A DNA stretch of 23,826 bases, from positions 1 to 23,826 of IMG/VR virus record IMGVR_UViG_3300030109_003036. One strand, 5' to 3'. Made by a program: the position numbers and the translations under genes. This DNA is from a virus. The notes beneath the pieces were generated by a model. That model did no database searches, was not told the DNA's origin, and saw only the letters and a list, made by a program, of their open reading frames with translations. Within the stretch, counting starts at the first letter, position 1; every line of letters begins with the position of its first letter. Shown here one piece after another: positions 11,189 to 21,053 of this stretch.

Positions 11189-11479
11189 ATGCCTAGGAAG
11201 AGAAGAAAAAGAATCACAACTCAAACAACTCCTGATATACCTTTTCCAAAAGTCAGAGTGGAGTGGGTCGACGCTATGAGTGACTCAGGCTGGGCCAATG
11301 AGAAAGAATTTACTAAAATGAAATTAGCCTATCCAATTAATGAAGGTTGGTTATATTCTAAAGACAACAAAGCAATTAAATTGTTTGCTTCTTTTGATAA
11401 AGAGGATGATGGTTCGTTTAGTTTTGGGGATCGGACGATGATACCTCGTCAGTGGGTTCGGAAGATTCAGAAGATTTAG
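11189..11479 (+). CDS. Small conserved phage protein
   Basis: The start is placed at ATG 11189 (MPRKRRKRITTQ), since the upstream ATGs at 11099 and 11105 lie in a hairpin and the residues before 11189 look non-coding. AGGG lies upstream at a short spacing. 96 residues: a basic head, then TTPDIPFPKVRVEWVDAMSDSGWANEKEF, GWLYSKDNKAIKLFASFDKED and a final TMIPRQWVRKIQKI. It looks like a small beta-rich domain with aspartates. The 3' end overlaps the end of the minus-strand TerS gene by 62 bases, so the two are convergent. Function unknown. Confidence 0.75.
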   Translation: MPRKRRKRITTQTTPDIPFPKVRVEWVDAMSDSGWANEKEFTKMKLAYPINEGWLYSKDNKAIKLFASFDKEDDGSFSFGDRTMIPRQWVRKIQKI

Positions 11480-11963
11480 GTGCTTCAATCGCTTCACCTT
11501 CAACAGTCGTTGCATTTAAAAGAGGAGCGTAGTCGTCTAAGATTTGTTTCATTTTTGCTTCTAATTGTTCTTCTGTTAGGTCCTCTAATTTACCTGTCTT
11601 TATTATTTTTCTGTCTATGTATAATCCTGCTGCCTTGCCACGAGATACTTCAGCGTTTACAGCGGATGAGAAAGATCCTTTTTTTAAAGCTGCTGTCTTA
11701 ATTCTGTCTAATTCTGCCACGTGTTTGGCATAAGTAACTTCATGTTTCTGCAATCTTTCTTCTTGTAGTTTTCCAATGTACTGAACTACTAATGGTGAGT
11801 GTCTAGGATTGGTTAATTCTGATCCTTCTACGGGTGCTCTTTTGGGACTATAGCCCGCAGCTATAGCTGACTCTGTTTTAGACATAGGTCCATCAGTTCC
11901 ACCGAATACTAAATACTCGGCAAATCTTTTTTGCATTTCAGTTAATCTTTTTGGAAGACCCAT
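11418..11963 (-). CDS. terS: Terminase small subunit
   Basis: 181 residues on the minus strand. LTEMQKRFAEYLVFGGTDGP, SKTESAIAAGYSPKRAPVEGSEL and PLVVQYIGKLQEER form the N-terminal helix-turn-helix DNA-binding domain of the Terminase_2 family (PF03592 type), including the AAGYS signature. A helical oligomerisation region follows (LDRIKTAALKKGSFSSAVNAEVSRGKAAGLY). The C-terminal 40 residues are acidic and Ser-rich (SSESSEPTDEVSSSD), the part that usually meets TerL. It recognises the packaging site on phage DNA. It is unusual in lying antisense to, and 5.6 kb away from, terL. AGGTAGAAA precedes the ATG. Confidence 0.88.
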   Translation of the reverse strand: MGLPKRLTEMQKRFAEYLVFGGTDGPMSKTESAIAAGYSPKRAPVEGSELTNPRHSPLVVQYIGKLQEERLQKHEVTYAKHVAELDRIKTAALKKGSFSSAVNAEVSRGKAAGLYIDRKIIKTGKLEDLTEEQLEAKMKQILDDYAPLLNATTVEGEAIEAPKSSESSEPTDEVSSSDPQN

Positions 11964-12097: not shown

Positions 12098-12139
12098 CAT
12101 ATTGACAATTTAAGGTAAGTATCCTATATTGTCAATATG
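12098..12139. promoter_or_regulatory. Promoter inside a 12-bp perfect inverted repeat
   Basis: TTGACA (12102-12107), a 17-base spacer and TATATT (12125-12130) form a near-consensus + strand promoter. CATATTGACAAT at 12098-12109 and ATTGTCAATATG at 12128-12139 are perfect inverted repeats covering the -35 box at one end and the start codon at the other. A dimeric repressor could bind both ends. Transcription would start at about 12137, the first base of the ATG. Confidence 0.75.
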
Positions 12140-12824: not shown

Positions 12825-13066
12825 AGCTTAAGGTAACGAAGAGTAAAAAAATTCGTTTTTCACCACACCAAATTGCGTTCCATACACGTCATCCTAACAA
12901 TACTTTTATCATGGTAAAGGCCCTCGGTCCTTTACCAAAGAAAACTTCTTCAGTTTTCTTGTACCGTGGTTCGAGGATCAAGGAGCTTGTTGCTTGTGGC
13001 TTGGAGCTTGAACCTGACTGCTTGGGACTGACGGCTTGTGGCTTGTGCCTCCAGAACCTGAACTAG
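12686..13066 (+). CDS. VRR-NUC/PD-(D/E)XK-like nuclease
   Basis: 126 residues. MGPEAKFYKQIKRNF matches the conserved Glu-containing first helix. LLGTPDLLVYN (Asp33) and CTIELKVTKSKK (Glu47-x-Lys49) give the PD-ExK core. SPHQIAFHTRHPNNTFIMVKAL supplies the following helix with Gln and the strand. This layout is that of VRR-NUC and Holliday-junction-resolvase-like phage nucleases. The last 35 residues (from about RIKELVACGLELE) are encoded by GCTTG-type repeats rather than a conserved domain, so the end may have been extended into repeat DNA. The stop codon lies in the hairpin 13051-13073. Confidence 0.75.
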   Translation: MGPEAKFYKQIKRNFKELSLIRIENTSLLGTPDLLVYNTSGHFCTIELKVTKSKKIRFSPHQIAFHTRHPNNTFIMVKALGPLPKKTSSVFLYRGSRIKELVACGLELEPDCLGLTACGLCLQNLN

Positions 13067-13135
13067 GTTCTGGTTTACAACCTGAGGTTGTGCGCTTGAG
13101 CCTTGGAGCTTGAGCCTTGAAACTTGGGCCTTGAA
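12983..13135 (+). repeat. GCTTG-type degenerate repeats, copy A
   Basis: Many near copies of GCTTGNNG (CTTGTTGCTTGTGGCTTGG style) run from the end of the nuclease gene to the end of the minus-strand gene at 13136. The stretch contains the hairpin CCAGAACC-GGTTCTGG (13051-13073) and the palindrome ACAACCTGAGGTTGT (13077-13091). It is G+T-rich on the + strand, unlike the rest of the window. Confidence 0.7.
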
Positions 13136-13956: not shown

Positions 13957-13971
13957 GCGCTATTTTAAAAT

Positions 13972-14057
13972 ACAACCTCAGGTTGTGCGCGGCCTTCGGC
14001 CGCTTGTTGCTTGTTGCTTGTGCTTGTTGCTTGTGCCTTGGTTCATGGTGCTTGGGC
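13972..14057 (+). repeat. Palindrome, GC hairpin and GCTTG repeats, copy B
   Basis: ACAACCTCAGGTTGT (13972-13986) is followed by the hairpin GCGGCC-TTC-GGCCGC (13989-14003) and about six near copies of GCTTGTT up to 14057. The order palindrome, then GCGC, then GCTTG repeats matches copy A at 13077-13135, so this is a composite element present twice, each time just beyond the end of a minus-strand gene. Confidence 0.7.
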
Positions 14058-14060
14058 CTC

Positions 14061-15075: not shown

Positions 15076-15104
15076 AATATAGCACTTGACAACTACTTTG
15101 TCAA
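15076..15104 (-). promoter_or_regulatory. Minus promoter of the divergent pair
   Basis: Minus strand: TTGACA (15104-15099), 17 bases, TATATT (15081-15076), then ATG at 15069. It shares its -35 region with the + promoter, so the two cannot be occupied by polymerase at once. Confidence 0.75.
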
Positions 15105-15114
15105 GTAGTATATA
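15086..15114 (+). promoter_or_regulatory. Plus promoter of the divergent pair
   Basis: TTGACA (15086-15091), 17 bases, TATATA (15109-15114). The inverted repeat ACTTGACAA (15084-15092) / TTGTCAAGT (15098-15106) contains both -35 boxes. Confidence 0.8.
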
Positions 15115-15714: not shown

Positions 15715-15752
15715 TTGACATATGAGGGATTATAGACTATAATCCCTCATAT
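15715..15752 (+). promoter_or_regulatory. Consensus promoter with a 33-bp palindrome
   Basis: TTGACA (15715-15720), 17 bases, TATAAT (15738-15743): full consensus. The sequence from 15720 to 15752 is a perfect palindrome with 16-base arms around A15736 (left arm ATATGAGGGATTATAG). The -10 box is inside the right arm. Confidence 0.85.
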
Positions 15753-15778
15753 TATAAATACTAACGGAAAGATATAAA

Positions 15779-16042
15779 ATGAAAACAAACGACCTAAAAA
15801 ACCAACTACACGAGATGAATAGTATTATGGTATCATCAATGGATTATGCTACAGCAACTTGTTTAAAAAATTGTGCTTTAGACATAATTCAAATTATGAA
15901 AGATGAGTTGGCAACGGAGGGCAAACAAGATTCTGATAAGAGCAATAGAAGAATGTTTGTTAATATCTCTAGCAAAATTGCTGACTTGGCTAAATCATAC
16001 CAAAAACAAGCCAAAGAAATAGAAGAAAGAACCAAAGATTAA
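15779..16042 (+). CDS. Small helical hypothetical protein
   Basis: 87 residues, with CTAACGGAAAG before the ATG. MKTNDLKNQLHEMNSIMVSS, CLKNCALDIIQIMKDELATEG and RRMFVNISSKIADLAKSYQKQ form three amphipathic helices with no beta structure. No domain recognised. It has its own palindromic promoter, so it is expressed separately from the gene before. Confidence 0.75.
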   Translation: MKTNDLKNQLHEMNSIMVSSMDYATATCLKNCALDIIQIMKDELATEGKQDSDKSNRRMFVNISSKIADLAKSYQKQAKEIEERTKD

Positions 16043-16044
16043 GG

Positions 16045-16082
16045 TTGACATATCTGGGATTATGAACTATAATCCCAGATAT
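16045..16082 (+). promoter_or_regulatory. Consensus promoter with a palindromic spacer
   Basis: TTGACA (16045-16050), 17 bases, TATAAT (16068-16073). ATATCTGGGATTAT (16050-16063) and ATAATCCCAGATAT (16069-16082) are perfect inverted repeats. The dyad centre is 21 bases after the start of the -35 box, as in the promoter at 15715. Confidence 0.85.
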
Positions 16083-16105: not shown

Positions 16106-16375
16106 ATGGACACACTCGACAAAATGCCAAGTTCGTTTTTTATAACTTACTTCGCAAAGACACACAAAGGTGAGCAGTACCCTAACGGAGGAAAAATCAT
16201 CACTAGAAAAGCACAAGAGCCAAACCCTAAAGGTACAGCAGGTAGAATCTTCACAGATAAAAATGGAACAGACAGATATATCTACTGGGACTTAGAGGCA
16301 AGAGATGAAAAAACAAATGCTTTAGGGGCTTGGAGACACGCAACTGGTAAATGGAATATTAAAACAAATGATTAA
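16106..16375 (+). CDS. Small soluble hypothetical protein
   Basis: The ATG at 16106 follows the CTAACAGAAAG leader of the consensus promoter, so it is preferred over the upstream in-frame ATG at 16085. 89 residues: MDTLDKMPSSFFITYFAKTH, GGKIITRKAQEPNPKGTAG and GTDRYIYWDLEARDEKTN give a beta-rich domain ending in LGAWRHATGKWNIK. It resembles in style single-strand-binding or small regulatory phage proteins, but nothing specific is recognised. The first hairpin after it (16405-16428) probably ends its transcript. Confidence 0.75.
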   Translation: MDTLDKMPSSFFITYFAKTHKGEQYPNGGKIITRKAQEPNPKGTAGRIFTDKNGTDRYIYWDLEARDEKTNALGAWRHATGKWNIKTND

Positions 16376-16404: not shown

Positions 16405-16440
16405 GGATTGGGGCTTTCGCCTCAATCCTAATTCTTTATT
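16405..16440 (+). terminator. Intrinsic terminator after the small gene
   Basis: GGATTGGGGC (16405-16414), loop TTTC, GCCTCAATCC (16419-16428): a 10-bp stem with one G-T wobble, followed by a T-rich stretch (TAATTCTTTATTTTT). Confidence 0.7.
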
Positions 16441-16470
16441 TTTATATTTAACACTAACAAGAAAGGCACA

Positions 16471-16656: not shown

Positions 16657-16852
16657 TAAATAGTTGTATGCAATAATTGCATACAACCACAGGTTGTGCG
16701 CCCCCTTCGGGGGCGCTATACATAGTGTCAAGCATAATCCTAGACTCTATGTCCAAAATGGGTCTGGGCTTCGCCCCATACAACCACAGGTTGCATTGCC
16801 TTAATTTTGCCACAATTCGCGCCCTTCGGGCGCCCTCATTTTCTGTTGGGTC
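16657..16852. repeat. Run of stacked palindromes and GC hairpins
   Basis: No gene seen. In order: the perfect palindrome GTTGTATGCAAT-A-ATTGCATACAAC (16663-16687), ACAACCACAGGTTGT (16683-16697), GCGCCCCC-TTC-GGGGGCGC (16698-16716), CATAGTGTC/GACTCTATG with one mismatch (about 16721-16750), GGGC-TTC-GCCC (about 16767-16777), a second ACAACCACAGGTTG (16780-16793) and GCGCCC-TTC-GGGCGC (16819-16833). The strong terminator follows. Confidence 0.75.
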
Positions 16853-16890: not shown

Positions 16891-17069
16891 CCATATCAAT
16901 AGAGGTACCAGCACGGGTTGCATTTTTTTTGGATCACGGAACATCGACCCCCTTAATATAAAAAGGAGTCTCACAACCTCAGGTTGTATCGCTTGATTTA
17001 GAAAGACAATGGTGCTAAAAAACTTCTTTAACACCTTATAGGGGTGCAAAAAAATTTTAAAAATTTTTT
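16891..17069. other. Gene-free leader before the HNH gene
   Basis: No convincing gene. It holds one more copy of ACAACCTCAGGTTGT (16973-16987), an AAAAAGGAG-like stretch near 16959-16968 that is not next to a start, and a run of A and T before the next ATG (17046-17069). A late promoter may be here, but no sigma70 boxes are clear, so a phage-specific promoter is possible. Confidence 0.5.
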
Positions 17070-17558
17070 ATGATTTTTGACGCTTACGAAATAGATAACA
17101 GAATAAAACCTAATACATACATAGTTCATACTGAAGGTGGTTATCATATGTTTCACCATAGGTGTTCTAAGGATAAGTATTTAAACCCTTTGTATAGAGA
17201 AAAAATTTGGCCATATGTAGAAGACAAAAATAGAATTATATGGCCGGGCCTTACCAAAAAAGATCCGTATCCTCGTTTACATCTCACACCGAGGATTAAG
17301 AAAAGAACTGAAACAGGAAACATTAAAAATATTTTTATTTATATGCATCAATTAATTGGGTCTCTTCATAAAAAGAAAAATACTGAAGATGTGGTTAATC
17401 ATATTAATGGGAATCCGGTAGATTACAGACTTAAAAATTTAGAATATGTGTCTTTTGCTAAAAATGCAGAAGGTGTTGAAAGAAAAAGAATAAACTATAA
17501 CGAAATTTATGATACTTATTTAACAAGAGGTTTTAAAAACGTATATGAATTTAGATAA
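17070..17558 (+). CDS. HNH homing endonuclease
   Basis: 162 residues. YMHQLIGSLHKKKNTEDVVNHINGNPVDYRLKNLEYVS (about 111-148) is the HNH core: first His in MHQLI, VVNHINGNPxDYRLxNLE with the central Asn and the acidic/Asn-rich turn of the HNH_3 type. The N-terminal 100 residues include GGYHMFHHRCSKDKYLNPLY and would contact DNA. It overlaps terL by 14 bases. HNH genes beside terminase genes are common in phages, where they can act in mobility or in packaging. Which role applies here is not visible. No intron signs. Confidence 0.85.
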   Translation: MIFDAYEIDNRIKPNTYIVHTEGGYHMFHHRCSKDKYLNPLYREKIWPYVEDKNRIIWPGLTKKDPYPRLHLTPRIKKRTETGNIKNIFIYMHQLIGSLHKKKNTEDVVNHINGNPVDYRLKNLEYVSFAKNAEGVERKRINYNEIYDTYLTRGFKNVYEFR

Positions 17559-19023
17559 TATAGATATAAGTAAATTACCTGCTGAAGTTAGAAAGCAACT
17601 CTTACAGTTACAAGTAATGGTAGCTGAAAAGAAAATTAAGAATCGTGCTAAAGATGACTTCATGTCCTTTGTCAAAGCTGTGTGGCCCGAGTTTATAGAA
17701 GGTCCGCACCATAGAGTTATAGCTAAAAAGTTTAATGACCTTGCAACTGGAAAAATTACACGACTAATTGTTAACATGCCACCTAGACACACTAAGTCTG
17801 AGTTTGCAAGTTACTTGCTACCAGCATGGATGGTGGGCCGTGAGCCAAGATTAAAGATTATTCAAGCAACACACACGGGAGAATTAGCAGTAAGGTTTGG
17901 TCGTAAAGCAAAAACACTCATTGACAGTCCAGATTATGCAAAAATTTTTGACACAAGACTTCGAGAAGACAGTCAGGCTGCAGGAAGATGGGAAACGGCA
18001 CAAGGTGGAGAGTATTTCGCAGCTGGTGTAGGTGGAGCTATTACCGGTCGAGGTGCTGATCTTCTAATTATTGACGATCCACACTCGGAACAAGACGCAA
18101 TGTCAGCTAGCGCCTTTGAAAATGCGTATGAATGGTACACATCTGGTCCAAGACAACGTCTTCAACCAGGAGCTAAGATTGTTTTAGTTATGACGCGTTG
18201 GTCAAAAAAGGATTTAACAGGAATTTTACTCAATAATCAAAAAGATATTAAGGGTGATCAGTGGGAAGTGGTTGAATTCCCAGCAATCATGGACCACGGA
18301 ACTAAAAAAGAACCGGTTTGGCCACAATATTGGAAGATGGATGAACTTGAGAAGGTAAAAGCAACACTTCCAGTTGGAAAATGGAACGCACAATGGATGC
18401 AAAAGCCAACTTCTGAAGAAGGAGCCATTATAAAACGTGAATGGTGGCGAAAATGGGACAAAGATTGGTTGCCAGACTGTTATTACGTTATTCAATCGCT
18501 AGATACAGCTTTTTTAAAGAAAGAAACCGCCGATTACTCGGCAATTACCACTTGGGGAGTGTTTTATCCAAATGAAGACTCAAAACCAAACTTAATTTTG
18601 CTTGATGCCATCAAAGAACGTTATGAATTTCCAGAATTACGAAGAGTTGCACTTGATCAATATAAATATTGGAATCCTGACATGGTTGTAGTTGAACAGA
18701 AGGCTTCAGGAACTCCATTAACTCACGAACTTCGTCAAATGGACATTCCAGTAATGACCTTTACTCCTAGTCGAGGAAATGATAAACATGTTAGAGTAAA
18801 TTCATGCGCACCGTTATTTGAAGCAGGAATAATATGGGCTCCAGATAGAAAGTTCGCAGAAGAAGTCGTTGAGGAATGTGCTTCGTTTCCTTACGGCGAT
18901 CATGACGATTTAGTCGATTCTATGACTATGGCGGTCATGCGATTCAGGCAGGGAGGCTTCCTAACCCATCCAGAAGATTATGAAGATGAGAAAAAAGAAC
19001 CTAGGAAGATGGAGTATTACTAA
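17545..19023 (+). CDS. terL: Terminase large subunit
   Basis: 492 residues. The ATPase domain shows the Walker A motif PPRHTKSE (79-86) and Walker B LLIIDDPHSE (173-182), with a coupling motif near VLVMTRWS (213-220). The nuclease domain has Asp320 (QSLDTAF), Glu384 (VVEQKASG) and the HDD at 453-455 (GDHDDLVDSM), the RNase H-like metal site. It drives DNA into the procapsid and cuts it. Length and motifs are complete. The next gene starts on its last base (taATGg overlap). The small subunit is not adjacent but lies antisense at 11418-11963. Confidence 0.97.
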   Translation: MNLDNIDISKLPAEVRKQLLQLQVMVAEKKIKNRAKDDFMSFVKAVWPEFIEGPHHRVIAKKFNDLATGKITRLIVNMPPRHTKSEFASYLLPAWMVGREPRLKIIQATHTGELAVRFGRKAKTLIDSPDYAKIFDTRLREDSQAAGRWETAQGGEYFAAGVGGAITGRGADLLIIDDPHSEQDAMSASAFENAYEWYTSGPRQRLQPGAKIVLVMTRWSKKDLTGILLNNQKDIKGDQWEVVEFPAIMDHGTKKEPVWPQYWKMDELEKVKATLPVGKWNAQWMQKPTSEEGAIIKREWWRKWDKDWLPDCYYVIQSLDTAFLKKETADYSAITTWGVFYPNEDSKPNLILLDAIKERYEFPELRRVALDQYKYWNPDMVVVEQKASGTPLTHELRQMDIPVMTFTPSRGNDKHVRVNSCAPLFEAGIIWAPDRKFAEEVVEECASFPYGDHDDLVDSMTMAVMRFRQGGFLTHPEDYEDEKKEPRKMEYY

Positions 19024-21053
19024 TGGATAAAATATTTAAACTTATAAGGGCATTTCAAAAAGCAAATGGTAGATCTCCTACTCCTAGCGAATTAGCACAA
19101 TTAAAAAAACAAGCAGGTGCCATTCCTGAAAGAGGAAAATTTTTACAGTTTCCTCCAGGGGGTAAAGGAGGAAAAGGTCCAACTAACATAATGGAAGAGG
19201 TGGTTGATGAGCAAGGGAATTATATTGGAAATAGAAAAGCAGAAGAAATGGGTCTTGGAAGTCTTCGTGAAAGTTTTACTAAAAAATACCCACCACACAA
19301 AGTTAGTGATAAATTAGGATTTAGACGAAAAGAATATCCAGCAGGTGTAGAACCAGGAAGCAGATTTGCTAAAGCTATTGATGAGTCAGATGCAATTCAA
19401 GAATCAAAACTTAAATTAAGAATGGAAAGACAAAATAAGGAAACAGCTGAGAGAATAAGAAATAAAAAACAAATGACTGATAAAGAGGTTAAAGACTTCG
19501 CAGATGAATTTGGTATAGATCCATCAGCAGAAGAATATAATTGGGATGGCACCCTTGGTGATGCAAAAAAACTTTTAAAATCTATGAAGGATGAAGAAGC
19601 TTACATGTTTCAACAATACAAAGCAGGTAGACTAGATCCTAAACCAGGGGAATCAGGTAGAAAAGAATTTTTACAAAAGAAAATGCAAGAAATGGAAATG
19701 AGTGGTGATAAAAGATTAATGACTCAAGATGAGATAGAGGAGTTAATAGGTTTAGAAGACTTTGCATCAGGCGGCAGAGCTGGTTTTAGTAATGGTAGTT
19801 CTCAACAAAGATTGGCGGGCATAACGGCTCTGCAACCTCTGGAAGCAAGAGCTAGAACAGAAAATACTTCTGAAAAAATTTTTAATAAACTACTTGAAGT
19901 TGCTAAAACTTTAGAATCCGAAGAACAGAAATATATGTACGAATTTGTTATTCCCAAGACTTTAATGAAACTATCAGCTGATGTAGGCACGAAAGAATCA
20001 CAAGCAATAAGAAATTTTTTAGCGGAGAACCCAGATCTTACCAAAGTTGATCTTAGTAATATTCCTCTTAAGTTTAACGATAACACCCATCTTAAAACAA
20101 TGTTAGAGATTCCACTTCCTTCTAACATAAAAGCAAAGGTTACTGCAGACTCTTCTATGACTGGAAGTGATTTAGATAAAATAGAACTAACCTCAAAAAA
20201 TTTAGACATTGAATATGATAAGAAAAAAAATGAAATAGCTAGTGATTTAAATTTTGATATAGGTCAGGGAGATATAAATCTTTCTAACGTCAATTATTTA
20301 AATGACAACACTAATGCCTCTAGGTTAGATGTTAAATACCCTTTCAAAGCAGGAAATTTAAAAGCTAGAGTTAATGCAGAAGATGGCAACATTTATAGAG
20401 GGCAAATTGGATACGCAGATGACAAACAAGGTTTAAATTTTTTTCTTAATGAAGACACAGCTCCTTCTATTTCAGCGTATAGAGATTTTGATAATAATAT
20501 TGGTCTAGATGCGGATCTTTCTTTAGACAAAGAAGACTTAAATCAAATTGGTGTTAGATATCAACCAGATAACAATCTTAATCTATTTGCTAAGCAAGAT
20601 ATTGGTGAAGGAGGAACCACTATAGGTGGAGACTATATTCTTTTCGATACTAAAGATGATGTAGGAAATAAATCTCGTTTTGATATTGGTGCACGGGCAG
20701 ATTTAGATGGAGAAAAGAATGCGTATTTTAGATATGTAAAAAATTTCGGATTAAAAGAACCTGGTCTTCAATTTCAAACAAACAATCCCGACGAAGCTAT
20801 AGATTTTCTTTCAAGTAAAAAGAATTTTTTTAATTCAGGCGGAAGAGCTGGTTTTTATTTTGGTGGTGATGTTAAACCAGACATGTCTGACATTGGACAT
20901 GGTTCAGATTCTTTGATGGCTAGAACAAGATTAGTTTCACCAAATGGTATGGCAACGACTTCAACTGGATTAAATTACTTATTAGCAGAGGATAATGACA
21001 ATATCAGAATTCCTTATGCCAAAGGCGGCGTAGCTAAAATTTTAAAAGAATAA
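19023..21053 (+). CDS. Large protein with GGRAGF motifs and a beta-strand-rich region
   Basis: 676 residues starting on the last base of terL. N-terminus: MDKIFKLIRAFQKANGRSPT, a helical start. Residues 130-240 are charged coil. SGGRAGFSNG (about 248-257) and SGGRAGFYFGG (about 603-613) are two copies of one motif. Between about 335 and 590 many alternating short strands appear (LNFDIGQGDINLSNVNYL, RLDVKYPFKAGNLKARVN, RGQIGYADDKQGLNFFLN, IGVRYQPDNNLNLFAKQD), with the pattern and Asp/Asn turns of an outer-membrane-like barrel or repeated beta sheet. The end (YAKGGVAKILKE) repeats the Gly-Gly theme. It sits between terL and the portal gene, so it is probably a virion protein. Role unknown. Confidence 0.8.
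   Translation: MDKIFKLIRAFQKANGRSPTPSELAQLKKQAGAIPERGKFLQFPPGGKGGKGPTNIMEEVVDEQGNYIGNRKAEEMGLGSLRESFTKKYPPHKVSDKLGFRRKEYPAGVEPGSRFAKAIDESDAIQESKLKLRMERQNKETAERIRNKKQMTDKEVKDFADEFGIDPSAEEYNWDGTLGDAKKLLKSMKDEEAYMFQQYKAGRLDPKPGESGRKEFLQKKMQEMEMSGDKRLMTQDEIEELIGLEDFASGGRAGFSNGSSQQRLAGITALQPLEARARTENTSEKIFNKLLEVAKTLESEEQKYMYEFVIPKTLMKLSADVGTKESQAIRNFLAENPDLTKVDLSNIPLKFNDNTHLKTMLEIPLPSNIKAKVTADSSMTGSDLDKIELTSKNLDIEYDKKKNEIASDLNFDIGQGDINLSNVNYLNDNTNASRLDVKYPFKAGNLKARVNAEDGNIYRGQIGYADDKQGLNFFLNEDTAPSISAYRDFDNNIGLDADLSLDKEDLNQIGVRYQPDNNLNLFAKQDIGEGGTTIGGDYILFDTKDDVGNKSRFDIGARADLDGEKNAYFRYVKNFGLKEPGLQFQTNNPDEAIDFLSSKKNFFNSGGRAGFYFGGDVKPDMSDIGHGSDSLMARTRLVSPNGMATTSTGLNYLLAEDNDNIRIPYAKGGVAKILKE

Follow-up and report, generated by a model that had tools for sequence, protein, structure and literature searches.

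The terminase interval and its promoter-associated hairpins

The window, which is the whole stretch of 23,826 bases of a virus record analysed here, derives from a SAR11 podophage near HTVC027P, with whose large terminase its own shares 68.6% identity, while no close DNA relative was found among the named phages. Small genes, several of them without a known family, fill the interval between the small and the large terminase genes, and perfect TTGACA-17-TATAAT promoters precede two of them (Table 1). The genes gp33 and gp34 of HTVC027P, which lie within the same terminase-gene interval, show high early-to-middle expression in the transcriptome of that phage, the early genes of which are all of unknown function (PMC12753301).

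Table 1. Genes, promoters and hairpins of the terminase interval in the window.
Feature	Position	Strand	Remarks
Small terminase gene	11418-11963	-	
Promoter TTGACA-17-TATATT with dyad	12098..12139	+	dyad spans both boxes, 12 bp arms
Promoter-like TTGACA/TATATA with other dyad	15084..15114	+	dyad ACTTGACAA/TTGTCAAGT; upstream of the 186 aa ORF
ORF, 186 aa	15150..15710	+	no known family; stop codon directly before promoter 1
Promoter 1, TTGACA-17-TATAAT	15715..15743	+	perfect sigma70 consensus, by sequence only
Hairpin 1	15720..15752	+	arms 15720-15735 / 15737-15752, 16 bp, around A15736
ORF, 87 aa	15779..16042	+	between hairpin-promoters 1 and 2
Promoter 2, TTGACA-17-TATAAT	16045..16073	+	
Hairpin 2	16050..16082	+	arms 16050-16063 / 16069-16082, 14 bp, loop 5 nt
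ORF, 89 aa (MDTLDKMPSSFFITYF...)	16106..16375	+	
Intrinsic-terminator-like hairpin	16405..16445	+	canonical, with T-rich tail; follows the block's last gene
Large terminase gene	17545-19023		

The exact promoter pattern occurs twice in the window, whereas two matches were found in none of 100 dinucleotide shuffles. Both promoters overlap a dyad with its centre exactly 21 bases downstream from where the -35 box begins (+21), and the -10 box of promoter 1 lies inside the right arm of hairpin 1. The two dyads are the longest perfect short-loop hairpins of the window, and in 20 Markov-resampled windows only 0-1 hairpins with arms of at least 11 were found per window, with a maximum of 12. RNA folding gives -19.0 kcal/mol (z -5.7) for hairpin 1 and -20.6 kcal/mol (z -6.4) for hairpin 2. 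The inner core is identical in the two, while the outer arms differ in a paired manner (ATATGA/TCATAT versus ATATCT/AGATAT). The first-pass annotation had described two consensus promoters with dyads at this centre, a shared core and a paired outer difference, all of which agree with the present analysis; its starting position, 15720, is that of the dyad, but promoter 1 itself begins five bases earlier. No match to the window above the gathering score was obtained in Rfam.

Related sites in other phage contigs

A scan with the inner core retrieved 49 IMG/VR contigs, and scans with other cores retrieved 19 (CCCATTAT-TATAATGGG) and 46 contigs (GGGAGTAT-TATACTCCC), not all of which are members of the family. 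The core pattern is also found in 49 bacterial or archaeal contigs, almost none of which joined the family in the promoter scan. The retrieved loci together contain 1400 sigma70-like promoters, in which strongly paired dyads cluster at the centre +21 (75 sites), and a selection in which Watson-Crick, G.U and A.C cells were scored alike yielded 77 distinct sites. A few sites are centred one or more bases off this position, and the -10 box falls in the loop at two sites (L184 1989 and L168 2228). The strong sigma70-type consensus is kept across the family and is perfect at both sites of the window. Four such promoters follow one another in contig L021, each before a small ORF, and homologues of the 89 aa ORF are located downstream of a hairpin promoter in several contigs. 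At some promoters of the same clusters the hairpin is weak or absent.

Paired change of the arms

Pairing is most fairly examined in the 35 distinct promoters that were retrieved by the inner core alone and whose outer arms are unselected. Watson-Crick pairs are present at k=11, 12 and 13 in 35, 34 and 29 of these 35 sites, where shuffling gave on average 20.6, 10.5 and 13.7 (at most 28, 19 and 23), respectively, and pair 12 alone is represented by four pair types. When 37 sites are aligned without gaps, 98.0% of the cells are paired versus 74.9% when shuffled and 38-49% when slid, the covariation score is 0.532 versus 0.102, and both sides change in 8 of 12 pairs; as the core of this alignment is partly selected, the test of the outer pairs in the 35 sites is the stronger one. 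Among related sites GGG/CCC is inverted to CCC/GGG with the pairing kept, and a paired change is found even within the -10 box, where TATAAT/ATTAT has become TATACT/AGTAT. Seventy-two unrelated phage promoters of the form TTGACA-8-ATTAT-4-TATAAT, which served as a negative control, pair at 0-6 of 9 outer positions, which is the chance level; the symmetry is thus a property of this phage group, and a general phage property is ruled out. A putative second hairpin just upstream of the -35 box (AATAGTT/AACTATT) was dropped, the pairing being inconsistent by eye.

The aligned spacers of related phages therefore bear out the earlier proposal that the symmetry is maintained and that the arms change together. 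The same comparison speaks against the dimer-binding DNA site which that annotation had preferred over an RNA hairpin, since base identities are swapped, including positions of the -10 box together with their partners. A perfect dyad over the spacer and the -10 box with a common inner core (GGGATTAT/ATAATCCC) is what an operator overlapping the promoter, bound by a dimeric repressor or activator of the phage or the host, would look like. The half-sites, however, vary in identity, with cores of CCC/GGG and of TTT/AGG (wobble), arms of ATAGGGCTATTC and 14 kinds of outer triplets. A conserved half-site is lacking and the arms exchange identity while the pairing holds, and an operator was rejected as very improbable.

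Another explanation is that the symmetry is of mutational origin, with template switching during replication repairing one arm from the other without any selection for a hairpin. This would account for the observation that most stems, 36 of the 62 distinct ones over k=3-13, are perfectly Watson-Crick paired and that whole arms are rewritten together, but it does not predict that imperfect stems are biased to G.U pairs and to the coding strand, that the centre stays at +21, or that promoters elsewhere are devoid of such symmetry. We therefore consider a purely mutational symmetry quite unlikely.

The strand on which imperfect stems fold

The coding strand gives the more stable fold for 22 of the 26 distinct imperfect stems (sign p 0.0003). 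The perfect stems (n=36) have no strand bias; control promoters also lean slightly to the coding strand (64 to 33, median -0.3). On the coding strand, G.U exceeds A.C by 41 to 6 in stem cells outside the -10 box and by 23 to 5 when counted by local context, but by only 5 to 3 at k=13-14 in the 35 outer-unselected sites. As many of the wobble-bearing stems derive from one lineage, with the left arm TTTTATT, the independent events are fewer than these counts. The preference of the imperfect stems for the coding strand favours an RNA hairpin in read-through transcripts, and the strand evidence for it is good, although not overwhelming. The clearest single case of asymmetry, as judged from predicted folding, is the stem between gp35 and gp36 of HTVC027P (record 19224-19262), which has 15 pairs around the same centre, two G.U pairs and a weakened -10 box (TAGGAT), and for which -18.3 is obtained on the coding strand versus -10.1 on the other. 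In L249, a relative of HTVC027P, the genes on either side are the same but the arms are entirely different.

Folding at the DNA level, through extrusion of a cruciform or of a hairpin in the coding strand alone, could regulate replication or the accessibility of the -10 box and would also be compatible with several of these features. The dyad covers the -10 box and is mostly upstream of the expected transcription start, covariation of the pairs alone fits DNA equally well, and G.T would likewise be tolerated better than A.C if the coding DNA strand formed the hairpin. A cruciform, however, needs both strands, and it is mostly the non-coding side on which imperfect stems lose stability; the first-pass preference for a cruciform over an RNA hairpin is not supported, a cruciform being strand-neutral and the imperfect stems being biased by 22 to 4. 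Besides, a site located directly after the upstream stop codon and oriented with the genes fits a role in mRNA better. A hairpin formed in DNA is accordingly regarded as unlikely.

Position between genes and proposed function

At 74 of 77 sites, an upstream ORF that has 60 or more codons or extends beyond the end of the contig terminates close to the stem, with its stop a median of 10 nt ahead of it, and the next ATG is usually found 16-32 nt past the stem. Given these positions and the usual rule for transcription starts, the hairpin belongs to the read-through RNA of the upstream gene and not to the RNA of its own promoter. The first-pass annotation correctly placed most of the dyad ahead of the start expected for its own promoter's transcript, but overlooked that read-through RNA of the preceding gene contains the dyad, which begins about 10 nt after that gene's stop codon.

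The element may accordingly be viewed as a composite gene-boundary cassette. At the DNA level it would act as a strong promoter for the host sigma70 RNA polymerase, driving the downstream small gene. At the RNA level the same bases are predicted to fold into a hairpin of 13-16 bp about 10 nt past the upstream stop in read-through RNA, whereas transcripts from the promoter itself would be without the hairpin, since they begin close to where the right arm ends. The hairpin most likely sets the 3' end of the upstream message, either through arrest or attenuation of transcription or as a barrier to 3' exonucleases, in which case each small gene would constitute an insulated unit. Together with a use of the cassettes in recombination (see below), a promoter of one gene merged with an RNA hairpin that ends the previous message is the reading we hold to be reasonably probable on the basis of the sequence comparisons.

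Only 1-3 T are found in the 8 nt after the stem at 69 of 77 sites, and a canonical intrinsic (Rho-independent) terminator is ruled out by the lack of a U-tract directly after the stem. A terminator scan reported nothing at the two hairpin-promoter sites of the window. Strict termination is not supported by the sequence, as the U-tract is lacking and as an ordinary terminator ends the same block of genes (at 16405); for want of this tract, a role as terminator or 3' stabiliser is putative. Processing has also been considered. In phage T7, RNase III processing takes place between the early genes, and a site of this type could cut polycistronic read-through RNA into single-gene messages. An intergenic stem of 13-16 bp before each small gene would suit such a site, but the alignment shows no conserved internal loop or bulge and every gene already has a promoter of its own, which makes RNase III cleavage decidedly improbable. 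Attenuation, 3' protection and processing are all candidate roles.

Gene exchange at the elements

Alignment of the window with its nearest relative, contig L048, gives a 94.7% match up to 15781 and an 88.2% match from 16021. In the stretch between these positions the window carries the 87 aa ORF, while L048 has an unrelated ORF of 61 aa at the same place, and the homology resumes at both hairpin-promoters. The difference is one clean cassette exchange bounded by the two elements. Pairs of sites with homology on one side only are common, a count in which homology may be missed by searches with short flanks. Their sequence similarity may also allow the cassettes to act as recombination points for the exchange of genes. 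The element offers a sequence rule for both gene boundaries and points of exchange.

Comparison with known systems

The closest counterparts are the promoter early stem-loop (PeSL) cassettes of the T4-type phages RB49 and phi1, as described in two reports (PMC4503421, PMC5931544). The two kinds of element have in common a strong sigma70-like promoter combined with a stem-loop between small genes, many copies and a link to gene shuffling. The primary PeSL papers are reportedly those of Arbiol et al. 2010 and Comeau et al. 2014, and the PeSL stem-loops are said to be effective transcription terminators. In RB49, promoter stems overlapping the spacer and the -10 box were found (for instance GGGAGTAT-GCTATA-ATACTCCC; positions 36985, 39130, 42355 and 3201), which should be the PeSLs of the literature, and several RB49 examples are also without a U-tract. 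The position of the RB49 stem varies and the -10 box is often in the loop or outside, while in the SAR11 podophages the stem is fixed at +21 with the -10 box within the right arm. Since the large terminase is related to that of podophage HTVC027P and not T4-type, the design is the same but the lineage is not; the pelagiphage element is of the PeSL kind in a different phage group, with a fixed geometry of its own. This suggests that promoter/stem-loop cassettes may have arisen more than once. That the elements of SAR11 and T4-type phages make up a distinct class of overlapping promoter/gene-end element with separate origins is a tentative idea which we regard as rather doubtful.

More distant parallels exist. 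The haloarchaeal virus HGTV-1 has a TATA box and an inverted repeat before most left-side ORFs, a motif which has been likened to PeSLs (PMC3950731); it resembles the present element in placing a promoter-like box with an inverted repeat before many genes, but the promoter is of the archaeal type and the likeness is one of description. The ESAS of cluster K mycobacteriophages are imperfect repeats of 17 bp that have a derivable consensus, vary in their spacer and are tied to a translation-start motif of 13 bp (PMC3203893). They too are inverted repeats upstream of a subset of genes in many copies per genome, yet their half-sites keep their identity and those of the SAR11 phage element do not.

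The late promoters of the T4 genes e and soc lie inside mRNA hairpins that hide the ribosome site, and in both T4 and the SAR11 phages the promoter is located within a hairpin present only in read-through RNA. Sequestration of the ribosome site as in e and soc is ruled out here, as this site is outside the stem, downstream of it, and stays free. In a survey of HTVC023P-type genomes, promoters, palindromes, hairpins and terminators are unmentioned in the main text (PMC9599517). The cultured HTVC027P-HTCC1062 system, in which the host is a strain of the abundant marine bacterium SAR11 and for which an infection transcriptome exists, makes the element testable.

Other promoter-associated dyads

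The promoter at 12098 carries a second type of promoter hairpin, which folds at -16.1 kcal/mol (z -4.7) and has similar dyads in five contigs (L061, L062, L259, L024 and L015). The dyad at 15084 folds at -11.4 (z -2.7); it also occurs in L065 (about 17690-17730), and a like dyad (CTTGAC...GTCAAG) precedes gp35 in HTVC027P. In L027 (10927-10971) a dyad of about 45 bp, TTGACAAGATCTGGGATTAT...ATAATCCCAGATCTTGTCAA, is potentially bidirectional since it contains both -35 boxes. A further promoter class, TTGACAATCC..TATAATAGGGGTGGGAGG, is located before GC-rich DNA (reading-strand positions L039 3264, L046 732, L001 2942 and L031 980). The window also contains GCTTG-rich clusters of near-tandem repeats with a spacing of about 14 nt (12992-13131 and 14022-14059), and three non-coding copies of the dyad ACAACCTCAGGTTGT with GC-rich flanks (13970-13999, 16681-16710 and 16963-16989).
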